From NCBI GenBank assembly GCA_014193115.1, contig BJHQ01000001.1:124001-188000 (forward strand): 64,000 nucleotides of DNA, in the 5' to 3' direction. This stretch comes from Planctomycetota bacterium. GTDB taxonomy: Bacteria > Planctomycetota > UBA11346. The position numbers and the translations under genes were made by a program. Positions 11,251-18,691 of the stretch are shown here, one piece after another (position 1 is the first letter of the stretch; each line of letters starts with the position of its first letter). The notes beneath the pieces were generated by a model, which was given only the letters and a program-made list of their open reading frames with translations, searched no databases and was not told where the DNA came from.

Positions 11251-14200
11251 ATGCGGACGTGGCTGTTCCTGTGGTTGTTGGCGAGCGTCGCGATGTCCGC
11301 CGACCCGGTGGTGTCCTGGTCCGCTACAGCAAGCAGCGTCGCTGAGGGGAACAGCACCACGATCAGTTTAGCTCTTTCAGGAAGCTCCGCCGCTGCGATC
11401 ACGCTGAACATCACCGCCAGCAGTACGTCGGCGACATTGGGCACGGATGCCAATCTCACGGTCAGTTCGCCTGCTGGCGCCACCATCAGCAGTTCGGGCG
11501 ATGCCGTTACGCTGGTGCTTCCGGCGGGAGCGACTTCGGGAACGTTGACCCTGACCGCTGTACGTGATTCCACGGCCTCCGAGTCTGACGAGGACGTACT
11601 GCTGACGTTCGGCACCCCGGGGGTCGGAGCCGGTTACACGCTGGGGACACAGGTGGTCCACAAAGCGACGATCATCGATGTCGTCGATGCAACCTTGCTC
11701 CCTTTGCCTGGCAAAGGCAGTGCGACCGAGGACGCATCTCCTGCCCAGCTCCGATTGACGTTGAATCCATTGTCCGGTGAGGATCGGCTGGTCAATCTGA
11801 CGTTTTCATCAGGAACGGCGACAGCCGTAGACTGGGCCGGTTTCGCGGAATTCACCCTGACCAGACTGACTGCCGGCGAGAATATCGATACATTCACTGG
11901 TTCCGCCACCCACGGCACGGCGACGGGGGCCATCCTGTACCAGAAGATCAACCATGGAATCGGCGTTCCCGCTACCCTTCGCCTCGTCATGGTGGCAAAT
12001 CCGAATGAGGACACCAATATCAATATTAAGGCGGGACCAGCGGCAGAAAAAACGCTGACCTTCAAAACCAACGCCGATACTTCCCAGAACGATGTCGCCA
12101 TTGTCGCGAATCATCCCAGCCAGACGATGGAGAATCTCCGTGCAAAGCTGGAAGCGTTGGCGATCGTTGACGAATTGAATGTGTCGATCAGCGCCATGGG
12201 CAAGGCCACCTCGTTGCCCATCGCGGCAGGTGCCGAGCCCGTCCAATTGATGATCGAAGCCGTTGACGACTCCATCATTGAATCGAACGAAGTTGGGACC
12301 TTCGCCTTGGCCAGCGGAACCGGTTATCTTCCGGTAACCGGCAGCAGTTCGGTGGTCGTGACCTTCGTCAGCGATGACGTGGCATTGCCGGTGGTCACCT
12401 TGGTGCCAGCCGCCGTTCCAGACGCCATCGCCACTGAAGGGGATGCATCAGATACCGCTACCTTTCTCTTGAAACGGGATTCGACTAGCGCCAACCAACT
12501 TAATGTCGCGCTCACTTTCACTGGGACAGCCGCTGACAGTATCGATTTCACCGCGAAAGCGGGCAGCGCTGATGTGACGATTGCCAGTGGATCGGCGACG
12601 GTTTCGATCCTCGCGAACCAGACCGATCTCGTCCTGACCATTACGGCAAGGACGGATGATCTCGACGAGGGCGATGAAACGGTGGTGGTGACCGTGGTTG
12701 CCAACAGTGCCTATACGTTGGGCAGTGCCAAAACCCAAACCACCACGATCAAAGATCTCGGGCCGACGATCACCATCGGACCAGCGTCGGCGAGTGTCAC
12801 CGAAGGTAGCTCCGCGATCGTCACTTTGACGAGCAGCAGCACGCTGGTGGTCAGTAAGACGATAAACCTGACCCTCGGCGGAGTCGCACCGACGTCGCGA
12901 TATGTCTTGAGTGGTGCCAGCGGCAGTGGAACAACCCGAACCATCGCATTTCCATCAGGAGCGAAGACGGTTGACCTAACGTTGACGCCGGATGATGACG
13001 CAGTGGTCGAAGATCCGATGTCCGTGACCCTGACCGTCGTTCCCGGAACCGGGTACACGGTTGGTACATCCAAGGTCGCCACGATCACCATAAACGACAA
13101 CGAACCGACCATCACGTTGTCGCAGACAACAATCGAGATTCTTGAAGGAACCAGTGGCACCATCCAATTGAATCTATCGCCGGCACCAACGTCGTCCGCG
13201 CGAACAATTGCTGCCACCCTCAGCCCGTTGAATCAAATGACGGTGGCCGGCCCCGGCGTTTCTGGCACTGGCGCTCTCACGATCGCGGTTTCGGCGGGAG
13301 TATCCAGTGTTCCGTTGACGTTTTCGGCAACCGACGACACGACGACGGAGTCGGATCAAACGGTATCGCTGGTACTGGCCGCGGGATCTGGATACAAGCT
13401 TGGTTCGGCGTCGACAGCGGCGACCATTACCATTCCCGCTAATGATCCGGTGGTCAATTTGACCAAGACGAAAGATGCAACCGAAGGTAACGATGTCGGC
13501 TCGTTCCGGCTACAGATTGCACCCCTGGTGAAAACTCCGTTCGTGGTCGGGGTGGCGTTCCCAGGCCCTTCCCCGACGAATGGAGTGACCGCCCAGCCGC
13601 CCACCGCGACCTCCGGCGCGGATTGGATCGCATTGACCGGGGTGACCTTGAAACATGTCGATCTCAACCAAGGCATCACGATCACTGGCTCGGCGATCAC
13701 CGGCTCGGCGACCACCAGTCACCACTTGGTGACGACTGCGACTGGCGCCGATCCGGTGTCGGGGATCGCACAGGCTGAACTGATCTGCCTCGTTAACCCA
13801 ACTGCGGGCGAAACCGTTAAGATAAAAGATGCCGATAAAGATGCGATAACCGGCACAACGATTCACGAGGTCATTTTTACTTTCGTGTCGAGCTCAGCCT
13901 CGGCCCCTGCGACAAATGAAGTCGTTATCGTTGACAATCATCCCAAACAGACCATGGAGAATCTGCGGGCGAAGATCGCCGCGAGCGTCCTCCGGTTCGA
14001 CGCCGCGCCATTGGCAGCCCTGCAAATCGCCCAGGGAATTCCCATCCCTGCCAACACCCTCGAATTGCTCATCGATGCCGAGGCCATCGACGATGTTATC
14101 GGCGAAACTGCAGAAACCGCCGGATTGCAGTTGGTCGCTGGATCGCAGTACACCTTGGTGGGAACGAACGTGGTGACCATGGGGATCACCGATAACGAAC

Positions 14201-17019
14201 CTGTCGTCGGTCTGACGGTTTCGGCCACCGCGGCAGCAACCGGTGCAACCGAGGGCGAAAGCGCGCATGCGGCAGTGTTTGATCTGACGTTCACTCCAGT
14301 ACCGCAGCAGGATACCGTGGTGACGCTCGCCTTTGGCAGCAGTAGCACTGCCGCCACAGTCAACACCGATTTTGCTTTGACCGGCAGGACGTCCGCTTCC
14401 GTCGTGAGCTTTAGCGCTAATTTTGCTTCGCTTCAGGTGCCCGCCGGCTCGGCAACGGCCGCCCTGACCGTGATGCCTGTGGACGATACCTTGAAGGAAG
14501 GGGACGAGATTCTGCAAGTATTCTTGGCGACACCACCAACCGGAGCTGGGTACACCCTCGGTTCATCGACCACGGCCGCCATCATCATCCATGACAACGA
14601 ACCGACCTTCACGCTGGCACTGAAGAAAAACAATGCCGCCATTACCGGTCCCATCGACGAAGGCGACACCATTACCGCCATCATATCGGCCGCAGAGGCT
14701 CCTACCAAACCGCTCGTGCTTTCCATGGAATTCACCGGCGACGCAAGCAATCGAAATACCAATGTGTTCACTCTGCCCCAGGCGATTCTGGCTGCCGACC
14801 AAAACGGGCTCCGGAGTACCCTCACAGCATCTTCGACGGCTGCCGATTTGATAGCCTGGAATATCGACGTGGGCTCGACTTCGACCAAGGCGCGTCTTGA
14901 TCTGGTAATGCTCCATCAGCCGAACGATGGCGATGTCGTCAACATTGATGATGGGGTCAGTGCGACGGTAGCTACGCGGACGTTTGTCAGCACCAAGACG
15001 TCCGCCCAGCAAATTCTGATCGGCAGTACGATCGATGCATCTCTGCAAAACCTGATTTCGAGTCTGAGTGATGTGCGATTGGTCCCGAGCGTGGTGCCCG
15101 GTTCCACAAACCCCAATGTGGCCTGGGGAACCAGCCTGCCCTTTCCAAGCGGCAAGACGACGACGGCTTTCACCCTGTATCTCGTCGACGATCTGATCAC
15201 CAACGATCCCGATCCGCGCACCCTGACCGTCAGGATTGCCGATCGGGTCCCGGCGACGTACACACCCGGATTCCCATCCACGGCATCGGTTACGGTCAAG
15301 GATAATGAACCAACGTTGTCACTGTCGATGAGCTCGACCGCGTCGGTGACGGAAGGTGCGACTATTTCGGCGACCATCACCTGTGCTCCTGCACCGAAAA
15401 AGCCGTTTCTGGCACGCCTCGCTTTTACCGGCGTCGATCGCAATTCCGACATCGCCACGCTGCCGATGGCACTGCTGACCGCCGGTTCGTTCGACAGCCG
15501 TCCGTTGCTTCAGGTCATGTCTTCGGGAACGGATGCCATCGCCATCCATCGTCAGCAAACCGGCAGTGCGACTTCCGCCGAAATCGTGGCCTTGGTGGTT
15601 CTACGCCAGCCGACGGATAGGGAAACCTGGACGATCAACGATGGCATGGGCACCAATGCGGTGTTCCGATTCTATCAAACCGACCCCGGCACTGACGCTG
15701 ATCAGATTCAGGTTCCGATCGGAACCACGATCGCTGCAACACTGACCTCTGTGATGAGTAAAATTCCGAGCACCCTATCGCTGACCCCTGGAGCGGTGCA
15801 GTGGACCAGCGATCTGCCCCTCGCCGCCAGTAGCACTTTCACGATCAAGGTCGTGGATGACCTGGAGGTCGAAAACACTGAAACACTCACGGTGGAAATC
15901 AAACCCGATCCGGCCTATCGCCTTGGGATCGTCGCCAGCGACAGCGTCGATATCCTCGATAATGAACCAACCGTTCAGATCACAGCCCTGAAGGCTCTGA
16001 CCGCCGAAGGCTACGTCGTTAATCAAGCCTGGCATTTGGCCTTCCTTCCCAAACCGACCCAGGATATCGTGGTAGGACTGACTCTTTCCGGAAGCGCCAC
16101 GCGAGCGGGCACTGGCCGCGACATCGCGCTGCTGTCCCAGATCGACCTTCAACAGAAAGACATCGGCGCAGCCGGAAATGTTCAGATCACCGTCGAGGGC
16201 GATCCGGAGCACACAATTTTGGTCCAGGGATTCAGCGGCGGAAGCAGCCTCACACCTGCAACCGGTCGGATCATCCTGGCCCGCAATCCGGCGGATACCG
16301 CTGTCATTTCTCTCGGCGATAAGCGTTTCGCATTCAAAAAAATAACCGGGACTGACGTGGTGGTAGTGCCCATATCCCCATCACCCGAAGATACTGCAAT
16401 CGATCTCATGGCGAAGATCAATGCTCACCTGGCGACCATCATGACTGCAACCGGTCCGGGTATCGCCCCATCGTTGCCGATCCGCGCCTATACGCAGTCC
16501 ATCGACCTGGCGATCACGGCGTTCACCGACACGGTTGATGAACCGAACGGAGAGACGGTGACCATCACCATCGCCTCCGGTACGAGCTACCGGGTCGCGA
16601 ATGCTCCCGGCGACCACGCCACGGTGCGGATCTTTGATCCGTTGGCGACCTATGCCATCACCAGCGAACCCGCCAATCCGGTAGTCCGTGCCGGCGAAAT
16701 CTGGTCGACCACCATCCGCGCCGAACCGATTGGCCCTGGTCCGCGAGCGACGGAAGCCGACGGGAAAATATTCACGGTTGGGAGTATCAACGTGGTCGAT
16801 TGGATTGTATCCTACGATCCCGTGGTTGGTGCCAATGGAGTGATCACCATGGGACTGGAAGCCCGGCCGACGTCCGGAACCGTTGGTCACCACCCCATCA
16901 ACGTGGAAGTGATACTGCTCGATTCCACTAGAGAAGTGATCTTCCAAACCATGCACCAGTATTTGATGTTGGTGGTGCCGCCGCCAACACCTGCACCAGC
17001 CGGGGAGGGCAAGGGATGA
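11251..17019 (+). CDS. Giant secreted Calx-beta repeat protein
   Basis: A 1,922-aa exported protein with signal peptide MRTWLFLWLLASVAMSADP. I count about ten Calx-beta-like domains, each ending with an acidic run, a GYxLG-type strand and a boundary such as ITINDNEPTI, IIIHDNEPTF or VTVKDNEPTL. Such folds bind calcium and occur in large adhesins. Five domains (about 115-150 aa) are plain. The other five (about 220-250 aa) carry an inserted module of about 90 aa ending in patterns such as TMENLRAKI or LMAKINA (near nt 11881-12190, 13680-13990, 14820-15070, 15520-15770 and 16180-16435). Base composition is lower in GC than in neighbouring genes. The last ~130 residues are not Calx-beta. It overlaps the next gene by 4 bp. 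A role as surface adhesin or matrix protein is inferred. Confidence 0.88.
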   Translation: MRTWLFLWLLASVAMSADPVVSWSATASSVAEGNSTTISLALSGSSAAAITLNITASSTSATLGTDANLTVSSPAGATISSSGDAVTLVLPAGATSGTLTLTAVRDSTASESDEDVLLTFGTPGVGAGYTLGTQVVHKATIIDVVDATLLPLPGKGSATEDASPAQLRLTLNPLSGEDRLVNLTFSSGTATAVDWAGFAEFTLTRLTAGENIDTFTGSATHGTATGAILYQKINHGIGVPATLRLVMVANPNEDTNINIKAGPAAEKTLTFKTNADTSQNDVAIVANHPSQTMENLRAKLEALAIVDELNVSISAMGKATSLPIAAGAEPVQLMIEAVDDSIIESNEVGTFALASGTGYLPVTGSSSVVVTFVSDDVALPVVTLVPAAVPDAIATEGDASDTATFLLKRDSTSANQLNVALTFTGTAADSIDFTAKAGSADVTIASGSATVSILANQTDLVLTITARTDDLDEGDETVVVTVVANSAYTLGSAKTQTTTIKDLGPTITIGPASASVTEGSSAIVTLTSSSTLVVSKTINLTLGGVAPTSRYVLSGASGSGTTRTIAFPSGAKTVDLTLTPDDDAVVEDPMSVTLTVVPGTGYTVGTSKVATITINDNEPTITLSQTTIEILEGTSGTIQLNLSPAPTSSARTIAATLSPLNQMTVAGPGVSGTGALTIAVSAGVSSVPLTFSATDDTTTESDQTVSLVLAAGSGYKLGSASTAATITIPANDPVVNLTKTKDATEGNDVGSFRLQIAPLVKTPFVVGVAFPGPSPTNGVTAQPPTATSGADWIALTGVTLKHVDLNQGITITGSAITGSATTSHHLVTTATGADPVSGIAQAELICLVNPTAGETVKIKDADKDAITGTTIHEVIFTFVSSSASAPATNEVVIVDNHPKQTMENLRAKIAASVLRFDAAPLAALQIAQGIPIPANTLELLIDAEAIDDVIGETAETAGLQLVAGSQYTLVGTNVVTMGITDNEPVVGLTVSATAAATGATEGESAHAAVFDLTFTPVPQQDTVVTLAFGSSSTAATVNTDFALTGRTSASVVSFSANFASLQVPAGSATAALTVMPVDDTLKEGDEILQVFLATPPTGAGYTLGSSTTAAIIIHDNEPTFTLALKKNNAAITGPIDEGDTITAIISAAEAPTKPLVLSMEFTGDASNRNTNVFTLPQAILAADQNGLRSTLTASSTAADLIAWNIDVGSTSTKARLDLVMLHQPNDGDVVNIDDGVSATVATRTFVSTKTSAQQILIGSTIDASLQNLISSLSDVRLVPSVVPGSTNPNVAWGTSLPFPSGKTTTAFTLYLVDDLITNDPDPRTLTVRIADRVPATYTPGFPSTASVTVKDNEPTLSLSMSSTASVTEGATISATITCAPAPKKPFLARLAFTGVDRNSDIATLPMALLTAGSFDSRPLLQVMSSGTDAIAIHRQQTGSATSAEIVALVVLRQPTDRETWTINDGMGTNAVFRFYQTDPGTDADQIQVPIGTTIAATLTSVMSKIPSTLSLTPGAVQWTSDLPLAASSTFTIKVVDDLEVENTETLTVEIKPDPAYRLGIVASDSVDILDNEPTVQITALKALTAEGYVVNQAWHLAFLPKPTQDIVVGLTLSGSATRAGTGRDIALLSQIDLQQKDIGAAGNVQITVEGDPEHTILVQGFSGGSSLTPATGRIILARNPADTAVISLGDKRFAFKKITGTDVVVVPISPSPEDTAIDLMAKINAHLATIMTATGPGIAPSLPIRAYTQSIDLAITAFTDTVDEPNGETVTITIASGTSYRVANAPGDHATVRIFDPLATYAITSEPANPVVRAGEIWSTTIRAEPIGPGPRATEADGKIFTVGSINVVDWIVSYDPVVGANGVITMGLEARPTSGTVGHHPINVEVILLDSTREVIFQTMHQYLMLVVPPPTPAPAGEGKG

Positions 17020-17942
17020 TACGCCTGCAATGCATCTTGGCTGCGTTGGCTCTGGCTGGTGGTCTGCTTTCGTGCAAAGGCGGATCATCCGGCGATTTCC
17101 CGCATCCGGTTCCGCCTCCACCTCCACCGGTCGTGTCTCTTTGGAGCGTGAATCTGAGCACGGGGGAACCGACCGCATCCCCGCCAAGCCCAGTCGGAGC
17201 TGCACATGGCGGCTCGCAGTGCTATTTCCGGCGGGTGGCGCCGACCGCCACGGTGGTGTCCGGCGCCGATGCGATCACCGAAAATGGGACGGCGTCTTCA
17301 TCAGCGGTGACACCGTTGGTGTCGCCGGCTCCCTTCACCATCGGAATGGTCGAGGTGACCCAAGGACAATGGTCGGCGTTGGTTGCCGGTTCGGGTCTGT
17401 CCGGCCCGTTGACCCCTTGGACGGGCGTTTCGATGCTTCCCTCAGGAACGTTGTTCAGCACCGCCACAGACCTCGACAAGCCCGCGTACAACCTTTCAGG
17501 CGACCAGATTCAAACCGTGCTGACCGCCTGGAATGGACGCAATACGGCGGCGCGTCTACGGCTGCCGACCAGCCAGGAGTGGGAGATCGCTTGCCGCAAC
17601 GGTGCCACCAGCGGCGCGCGATTCGGCTGGGGCGAGACCACGAATGACACGGTGGTCGGCACGTTCGCCCGGGTCCGTCTGAAATCGATTGATGACGCTA
17701 CGGCCAATGCCGGACCCGATGCGGTGGCTGGGCGGTTGGCCAATGACTTCGGCCTGCACGACCTGCACGGCAATGTCTGGGAATGGGTGAGCGATGGCGG
17801 CGGCACCGGAGCATCGCCCTGCCTGCGCGGTGGATCGTGGTTCGATCAGGTCGAGCGCGCCGCCACCGGCAACCGTTTGGACCTGCCCGCCAATGTTCCT
17901 TACGCCCTGGCCGGGTTCCGGCTGGTGCTGGAGATCAAGTAA
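17016..17942 (+). CDS. FGE-sulfatase (SUMF1)-like lipoprotein
   Basis: A 308-aa lipoprotein (lipobox LLSC, Cys20) with a proline-rich spacer, then a formylglycine-generating-enzyme-like domain. Hallmarks are FTIGMVEVTQGQW, RLPTSQEWEIACR, LHDLHGNVWEWVSD, LRGGSWFD and AGFRLV. The catalytic Cys pair of true formylglycine-generating enzymes is absent around RGGSWF, so this is probably a non-enzymatic C-type-lectin-fold member, a frequent use of the family in PVC bacteria. Its ATG overlaps the stop of the Calx-beta gene (ATGA), and the next gene starts on its own stop codon, so the three are translationally coupled and probably work together at the cell surface. Confidence 0.88.
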   Translation: MIRLQCILAALALAGGLLSCKGGSSGDFPHPVPPPPPPVVSLWSVNLSTGEPTASPPSPVGAAHGGSQCYFRRVAPTATVVSGADAITENGTASSSAVTPLVSPAPFTIGMVEVTQGQWSALVAGSGLSGPLTPWTGVSMLPSGTLFSTATDLDKPAYNLSGDQIQTVLTAWNGRNTAARLRLPTSQEWEIACRNGATSGARFGWGETTNDTVVGTFARVRLKSIDDATANAGPDAVAGRLANDFGLHDLHGNVWEWVSDGGGTGASPCLRGGSWFDQVERAATGNRLDLPANVPYALAGFRLVLEIK

Positions 17943-18691
17943 TGCCTGTGCGTTCCATACTTTTTCGTCCGGTGGGTTCGCTGCTGGCCTGCTTTGTCGG
18001 CTTGGCCGTCGGCGGCGAATCACCCAATCGTCTGCATGATGGCTGGCTGATCGACTATGACGCCCGAGTGGTGGTGGGTCTGGCGACGGCAGTGGACGGC
18101 GCGGATGTGCGCGGTCTGCCAGCGACTGCCGGAGCCTCGGCCGATCAGCGGCTGGACGCGAAATGGTTGGCCGGGCCGCATCTCGGACTGCGCGTGGATC
18201 GGATCGGCCTCAAGCTCGGCAAGTGGGGTTGGCTGGTCGGGGTCGAGGGTGCCTATGACCGGCATCTCGGCACCGTGGACAGCGTGCGCAGCACGGGTGC
18301 CGGCAACACCGGCCCGGCCTATGCCAGCGGCGGCCAGTTGCAGCTTGATGCTGCGTCGGTGGTGGTCCATGTCGGTCCGGTGCTGCGGGTGGACGACGAT
18401 GATGATCTGCTGCGTGTTTTCCCGCGGCTGCTCCAGTTTGAGCTTACCGGGCATCTCGGCGGCGGCGGCGCCCGGGGCCGGATTGCTGGTGGTCCGTGGT
18501 CGTCGTGGGGATGGTATGGCACCTATGGCGCCGAACTCGCCGGGCATGTCCATCTGGGCGATGGCCTCACTGCCGGCCTGGCCGTGGGCTATTCCGAATC
18601 GACGGTGGATCTGCGCTTCGCCAACACCCGCAACGGTACCTGGAGCGCCAGCGGCCTGACCGCGACGTTGCAGATCGGGCAGCGGTTCTGA
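17942..18691 (+). CDS. Outer-membrane beta-barrel-like protein
   Basis: 249 aa with an N-terminal signal sequence (MPVRSILFRPVGSLLACFVG) and then alternating hydrophobic/polar strands rich in Gly, Tyr and Trp. Examples are WGWLVGVEGAYDRHL, SSWGWYGTYGAELAGHVHLG and GLTAGLAVGYSESTVDLRF; it ends in an aromatic residue (IGQRF), as outer-membrane barrels do. No specific family is recognised. The ATG shares one base with the stop of the FGE-like gene, so it is the third cistron of the Calx-beta operon. Anchoring or export of the Calx-beta protein is a reasonable guess from context only. Confidence 0.75.
   Translation: MPVRSILFRPVGSLLACFVGLAVGGESPNRLHDGWLIDYDARVVVGLATAVDGADVRGLPATAGASADQRLDAKWLAGPHLGLRVDRIGLKLGKWGWLVGVEGAYDRHLGTVDSVRSTGAGNTGPAYASGGQLQLDAASVVVHVGPVLRVDDDDDLLRVFPRLLQFELTGHLGGGGARGRIAGGPWSSWGWYGTYGAELAGHVHLGDGLTAGLAVGYSESTVDLRFANTRNGTWSASGLTATLQIGQRF

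Follow-up and report, generated by a model that had tools for sequence, protein, structure and literature searches.

A module of phage virion and flagellar hook proteins nested in five Calx-beta repeats of a large planctomycetal protein

The gene at positions 11251..17019 (+ strand) of the window, a stretch of 64,000 nucleotides from a Planctomycetota bacterium (assembly GCA_014193115.1, contig BJHQ01000001.1, positions 124,001 to 188,000), encodes by translation a protein of 1,922 aa, P0001, which consists of ten Calx-beta-type repeats followed by a C-terminal domain. Five of these repeats are interrupted by an insert whose final part is homologous to a module, here called the NP-module, encountered in phage virion proteins and in the flagellar hook protein FlgE. 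Our reading, to which we assign a probability of roughly two in three, is that P0001 forms a Ca2+-stiffened extracellular Calx-beta fibre carrying phage- and flagellum-type plug-in modules as side branches, which have spread in part by repeat duplication.

Repeat architecture of P0001 and position of the inserts

The short repeats of P0001 are D1 (11251..11685; 145 aa including the signal region), D3 (12382-12759; 126 aa), D4 (12760-13104; 115 aa), D5 (13105-13449; 115 aa), and D7 (14200..14601; 134 aa), and the long ones are D2 (11686..12381; 232 aa), D6 (13450..14199; 250 aa), D8 (14602..15309; 236 aa), its tandem sister D9 (15310..15966; 219 aa), and D10 (15967..16644; 226 aa), all on the + strand. 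The long repeats owe their length of 219-250 aa to an insert in the identical place of each, i.e., I2 (11830-12198; 123 aa), I6 (13621-14025; 135 aa), I8 (14761-15120; 120 aa), I9 (15448-15798; 117 aa), and I10 (16120-16461; 114 aa). The point of insertion lies between the segment downstream of strand C and a strand reading SLPIAA, GIPIPA, SLPFPS, DLPLAA, and SLPIRA in D2, D6, D8, D9, and D10, respectively. An initial sequence-only reading of this region had proposed insertions of ~90 aa in five of about ten Calx-beta domains; the count was borne out, with five of ten repeats long and five insert sites matched, and the size was corrected to 114-135 aa. A tandem-repeat origin at the DNA level was considered and rejected, the region containing a single 15-bp array.

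The N-terminus of P0001 (MRTWLFLWLLASVAMSA) is Sec-like as judged by eye, and P0001 is probably a large exported protein located at the cell surface. The C-terminal domain (16645..17016, +; 124 aa) matches no Pfam family above cut-off. For P0001 as a whole, the Pfam Calx-beta family (PF03160) is matched at 29.8 bits (cut-off 27), the best stretch being residues 1050-1116 within D7. By eye, most repeats show EG close to their start, DD...ExxE in their second half, and a terminal DNE, at positions that we take to be Ca2+ ligands by comparison with NCX1 CBD1. In the Calx-beta domain of NCX1, Ca2+ is bound at one pole, which the CD, EF, and terminal loops make up; the CD segment of CBD1 is located at this calcium pole.

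After removal of the inserts, a core of 102-116 aa remains in each long repeat. A profile of the five excised cores aligned with that of the five short repeats with an hhalign score of 87.0 over 98 columns, as compared to a maximum of 16.1 in 100 column shuffles. Taken singly, none of the five long repeats reached the Pfam Calx-beta cut-off, either intact or after excision, and excision did not lift the match to cut-off (D2, 0.0083 excised vs 0.0019 intact; D9, 0.089 excised vs none intact; D6, D8, and D10, none either way). An AlphaFold2 model of D8, guided by an alignment in which the five long repeats were combined with 17 viral modules and one from FlgE, had a mean pLDDT of 81.9 and a pTM of 0.78. 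Within this model the pLDDT of the insert ranged from 62 to 96 by blocks of ten residues and peaked at 87-96 over a hairpin and a helix. In a second look with VIA-align, the top structural matches of the model were the Calx CBD1 structures 3rb7/3e9t (Z 9.8, rmsd 2.8-2.9, 107 of 236 residues aligned), and NCX1 CBD1 (2dpk) was matched with Z 9.1 and 109 residues aligned. The alignments with CBD1 take in both ends of D8, residues 1 and 236, and with 107-109 of its 236 residues aligned, about 127 residues fall outside the predicted sandwich, which is the match pattern expected if a large insertion interrupts a Calx-beta sandwich in D8. In the alternative that the long domains adopt a different, larger fold rather than Calx-beta with an insert, their falling singly below the Pfam cut-off would be accounted for, but this is very improbable, since the excised cores match the short repeats by hhalign and the Calx/NCX CBD1 structures head the matches of the D8 model. 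The nesting of the inserts inside Calx-beta folds that had been supposed from the sequence was in this way corroborated. Relative to Calx-beta as represented by PF03160 and NCX1/Calx CBD1, the P0001 repeats are thus alike in their predicted sandwich fold and differ by the insert of 114-135 aa in the CD segment of five of the ten.

Relationship of the inserts to each other and to the NP-module

The ten pairs of inserts were compared by Smith-Waterman alignment against 1,000 shuffles. Four pairs (2-6, 2-8, 2-10, and 8-9) were matched by none of the shuffles and three (2-9, 6-8, and 9-10) by 2 or 3 of them, while the remaining three (6-9, 8-10, and 6-10) were not significant, with 54, 123, and 195 of the 1,000 shuffles, respectively, scoring as well. 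Pairs 2/6 and 8/9 are close, and only within these two pairs is the first part of the insert, a lead of 52-58 aa, clearly common. The portion common to all five inserts is the final 59-77 aa, the module part, comprising NP or QP, a hairpin with an aromatic last strand, V-x-I, and a helix that ends NLRAKI-like. The shared pattern that had been read from the sequence thus stands for this final portion and not for the lead, and its NPxxGDxVxI-like turn applies to three inserts, two others having QP instead of NP. The mutual relationship of the inserts was upheld, most pairs surpassing their shuffles and a module profile (described below) matching all five; modelling likewise predicted an ordered rather than a disordered insert, with a mean pLDDT of 81.9 for D8 and one of 76.1 (pTM 0.71) for the insert alone.

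These data bear on the possibility that the inserts are neutral spacers, i.e., products of tolerated loop growth that lengthened the repeats and have no role of their own. Such drift would fit the near-shuffle level of pairs 6/10, 8/10, and 6/9 in direct comparison, as well as the insert-free state of the counterparts within the family; it is improbable, as the hairpin, the aromatic strand, and the helix are kept in all five inserts and the insert is predicted to be ordered.

The collection of NP-modules started from a single contig in a viral collection, which contains an exact back-translation of NPADGDTVTI; the short ORF found there led to 44 viral loci, and the pattern 'NPADGDTVTI...YTF...VLIG...NLxAAIN' was recovered from 44 viral contigs. 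A module profile was constructed from 39 sequences, 37 non-identical viral modules and two FlgE modules, without any sequence of the window, while six loci that were truncated or off-motif and one identical locus were left out. In the viral contig L058 (IMGVR_UViG_3300026518_000084), the module ORF comprises just 52 codons before it stops, possibly reflecting a frameshifted tail gene.

The profile of the inserts aligned with the viral/FlgE module profile with an hhalign score of 62.8 over 60 columns; among the controls, the highest of 200 column shuffles scored 17.7, the reversed profile 15.2, and the short Calx-beta repeats 11.4. Moreover, the five best stretches of P0001 for the viral/FlgE profile are the five insert sites, the sixth, located elsewhere, being at noise level, and every insert singly outscored 100 of 100 shuffles against this profile. 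The suggested likeness to phage-type NPADGDTVTI...NLxAAIN segments is therefore supported by a profile that holds nothing of the window, and by profile-profile comparison. Finally, the insert-only model had a sole match at E <= 0.001 in BFVD, a phage baseplate-J-like protein (E 3e-4, prob 1.00, TMq 0.66), a match that partly depends on the sequence result, since viral modules were included in the guiding alignment. Foldseek searches of the PDB with the D8 model and the insert-only model gave no match at E <= 0.001, and no solved structure was a significant relative of the insert (best Z 4.1; best E 0.14, to a tail sheath); a new fold was not deduced from this absence.

The correspondence between insert and viral module is partial. 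Both have the hairpin, the aromatic strand, a V-I-G strand, and the N-L-x-x-A-I helix, and both are nested in a host protein, but the viral module runs ~50 aa past the helix, whereas the P0001 inserts have their 52-58 aa in front instead, and the hosts are phage proteins in one case and a bacterial surface chain in the other. The half of the viral module behind the helix (TLTVTAK...GNAIATTE) was matched in I10 only (profile positions 3-104), the matches of I2, I6, I8, and I9 ending at 57-75 of 124, and the lead showed no resemblance to the viral module (8 of 100 shuffles equally good); by these matches, the insert does not amount to a whole viral module. A circular permutation linking the lead to the C-terminal half of the viral module was not supported on comparison. 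Convergence, in which 'P-x-D-G-D-x-V-x-I ... TFxF ... NLxAAI' would be a common hairpin-plus-helix solution reached by the inserts and the phage modules without shared descent, can draw on the shortness of the motif, on the lack of correspondence of the lead and the post-helix part, and on the additional matches of the insert profile to ubiquitin repeats, although the latter were dismissed as sums over many identical repeats of which single copies are at chance level (E 0.66 or worse). Common descent is much preferred to convergence, as the 60-column profile match lies far above the shuffled, reversed, and short-repeat controls and the insert-only model matches a phage fold.

No Pfam family covers the module: a scan of 33 viral/FlgE members gave weak, scattered matches only, among which Flagellin_IN (PF07196) was reached by one of the 33 (E 0.0063). 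Flagellin_IN, which presumably resembles the module superficially by its hairpin and 'IN' helix, was not matched by P0001, the long repeats, or any window protein scanned. The PHROG family phrog_28344, where the function is given as unknown, matches 13 of the 33 members. Among published work, nothing was found that joins Calx-beta with domain insertion and phage, and the motif strings DGDTVTI, NPADGDT, and GDTVTING were not found. Calx-beta repeats with a nested NP-module were thus not encountered in the literature searched, Calx-beta adhesins themselves being already known.

Hosts of the module and origin of the composite repeats

Ten viral carrier proteins of the module were scanned, and the flanks of the module were scanned separately for seven. 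The carriers include head and connector proteins (two major head proteins, a head decoration protein, and the head-tail adaptor Ad1), tail proteins (a tail tube/minor tail protein and two major tail proteins with an Ig-like domain), an Ig-domain protein, a DUF2460 protein, and one protein with function unknown. In annotated phages the carrier is named tail tube, major tail, or tail protein, or hypothetical, some of these matches being weak (E 1 or worse). In six of the seven phage proteins, the two flanks match neighbouring stretches of a single PHROG family; in the seventh, head protein L062, the C-terminal flank gave no match. For example, phrog_477 is split by the module, with flanks matching positions 4-73 and 71-170, and phrog_807 is split at two different sites, with flanks matching positions 2-95 and 93-242 in L093 and about 2-144 and 131-239 in L086, pointing to independent insertions. 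Furthermore, phrog_2913 and phrog_2175 are split by the module, as is phrog_290, where the gap is longer than the module.

Within the phylum, the insert profile matched 8 of 392 genomes, the genome of the window included. In this first scan the matches in G351, G165, G235, and G087 were counted as real, G012 and G077 were not among these, and the match in G137, an alpha-2-macroglobulin-type protein by eye, was taken as chance. A second phylum scan yielded 30 loci in 24 of the 392 genomes, of which 12 loci were inspected, the minus-strand loci L126, L127, and L130 being left out. The NP-module is present within FlgE of G165, G235, G087, and G225 (L053-L055 and L122), which belong to the same phylum as the window; these FlgE proteins are about 955-962 aa long and carry the module between the D1 and D2 Pfam regions. 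FlgE was identified by Pfam for two of the four, and ORFs were read for the carriers. Such FlgE resembles P0001 as an extracellular fibre protein of a bacterium of this phylum, and differs by its FlgE host domains and in that each protein matched the profile once, under the thresholds applied, as against five times for P0001. On contig C1 of G351 (441890-501307; L048-L051), one ORF of 19,806 aa contains many NP-modules among propeller-like repeats, with 22 profile matches that range from weak to clear. A cadherin-like host in G307 was suggested by eye and set aside, since joining the flanks left the N-terminal half unmatched and the C-terminal flank alone scored better. Without a curated Pfam match, the module nevertheless splits five PHROG virion-protein families and is also present in flagellar hook proteins and giant surface proteins, which suggests a plug-in domain that is in wide use and has no name so far. 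Once named, it would account for many proteins that are oversized or lack annotation.

The composite of Calx-beta and NP-module has a narrow distribution. In its own genome, the insert profile found the five P0001 inserts and nothing else, and no inserts were seen in the stretches read of the other Calx-beta giants encoded there; a scan of 22 more genomes from the family turned up two weak matches (E 0.005 and 0.02) and no convincing insert. Locus counterparts are present in G001, of the same genus (L111; a Calx-beta protein of 970 aa, then an FGE-like gene, then a barrel gene), and in G009 (L113; a Calx-beta protein of 1,300 aa, then an FGE-like gene), and the Calx-beta proteins of both, which are candidate orthologues, have no inserts. 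The C-terminal domains of P0001, L111, and L113 are alike by eye, phmmer giving no significant match. A search of genome contigs with P0001 for insert-bearing orthologues returned three ordinary Calx-beta-type proteins that were insert-free by eye. The proposal of a distinct composite domain is sustained as regards the repeated nesting of the module in Calx-beta folds; as the composite was found in P0001 only, it does not constitute a family of composite domains, and it appears to be recent or local, or to have been lost elsewhere. The G+C content of the inserts (0.55-0.59) is close to that of the rest of the gene (0.59) and gives no compositional sign of fresh import.

Regarding the spread within P0001, D8 and D9 are sisters in core and insert alike (z 20.7 and 15.0, respectively). 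A scenario in which the module was inserted more than once, each time independently and into another repeat, as opposed to one insertion followed by repeat duplication, would agree with the tree of the cores, in which the long repeats are not grouped and three changes of state are needed. This scenario is rather unlikely, as the module sits at the same point in all five repeats, with SLPI, GIPI, SLPF, DLPL, and SLPI soon after, and as D8 and D9 correspond to each other both in the core and in the insert; a single clade of long repeats is neither shown nor rejected by the core tree (p-AU 0.378), so that one origin is compatible with it. In the preferred reading, the module would have entered P0001, after which whole long repeats would have been duplicated, most clearly D8 and D9.

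Proposed function and genomic context

P0001 would be an exported surface chain of Calx-beta sandwiches in which, in five repeats, a separate folded module is plugged between strands C and D. This module would consist of the 'GDxVxI...TFxF' beta-hairpin, a short strand, and the 'NLxAKI' helix, with two or three extra strands ahead. Ca2+ may stiffen the chain outside the cell, and the modules may branch off sideways next to the calcium pole, giving a partner additional surface to contact; this partner could be neighbouring copies, a cell-surface polymer, or the substratum. A role in binding or assembly is most economical, given that virion proteins and hook proteins, which retain the module, all form part of extracellular assemblies; by this analogy an adhesive or assembly function of the side branches is a guess. 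With five copies of the module in one molecule, P0001 offers a system in which the contribution of the module to binding or stiffness is measurable.

Domains nested inside other domains are well known. A more speculative extension, which we regard as possible and rather doubtful, is that the NP-module is portable and loop-grafted, moving among phage virion proteins (head, connector, tail, and decoration), the flagellar hook, and host surface fibres and always landing inside an existing fold; it would have been captured here into a Calx-beta fibre and multiplied five-fold, possibly serving as phage mimicry, as a receptor-decoy surface, or as a shared polymer-binding head.

Large surface adhesins with Calx-beta repeats include BapP of Pseudoalteromonas tunicata and LapA, and share this type of repeat in a large surface protein with P0001; the parts of these reports that were consulted give BapP Calx-beta repeats of 108-141 aa, describe no insert in them, and list a beta-propeller and Big_9 repeats in BapP as well (PMC12153261, PMC7616799).

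P0001 is followed by genes for a SUMF1/FGE-sulfatase-like protein (17016..17942, +; Pfam PF03781, 2e-25) and a probable outer-membrane barrel (17942..18691, +; weak Pfam Autotransporter match, E 0.076, below cut-off). An ATGA overlap joins P0001 to the FGE-sulfatase-like gene, and a TAATG overlap joins the latter to the probable barrel gene. The succession of a Calx-beta giant and an FGE-sulfatase-like gene recurs within the family: the two are adjacent in the window (11251-18691), in G001, and in G009, and such Calx-beta/FGE-like pairs are also encountered on the same contig in G000:C5, G012:C76, G014:C235, G015:C50, G018:C201, and G004:C1. With regard to a possible type I-secreted, fibrillar adhesin, a gene for an HlyD-type membrane fusion protein (L111, 4096-5358; PDB 8dck_C, E 3e-41) lies directly upstream of the G001 Calx-beta gene, though P0001 and the G001 counterpart both have a Sec-like start by eye. 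Upstream of P0001 (8483-10063; 10506-11210, minus strand), genes for two PDZ proteins are present together with a divergent one for an LpoB-like lipoprotein.
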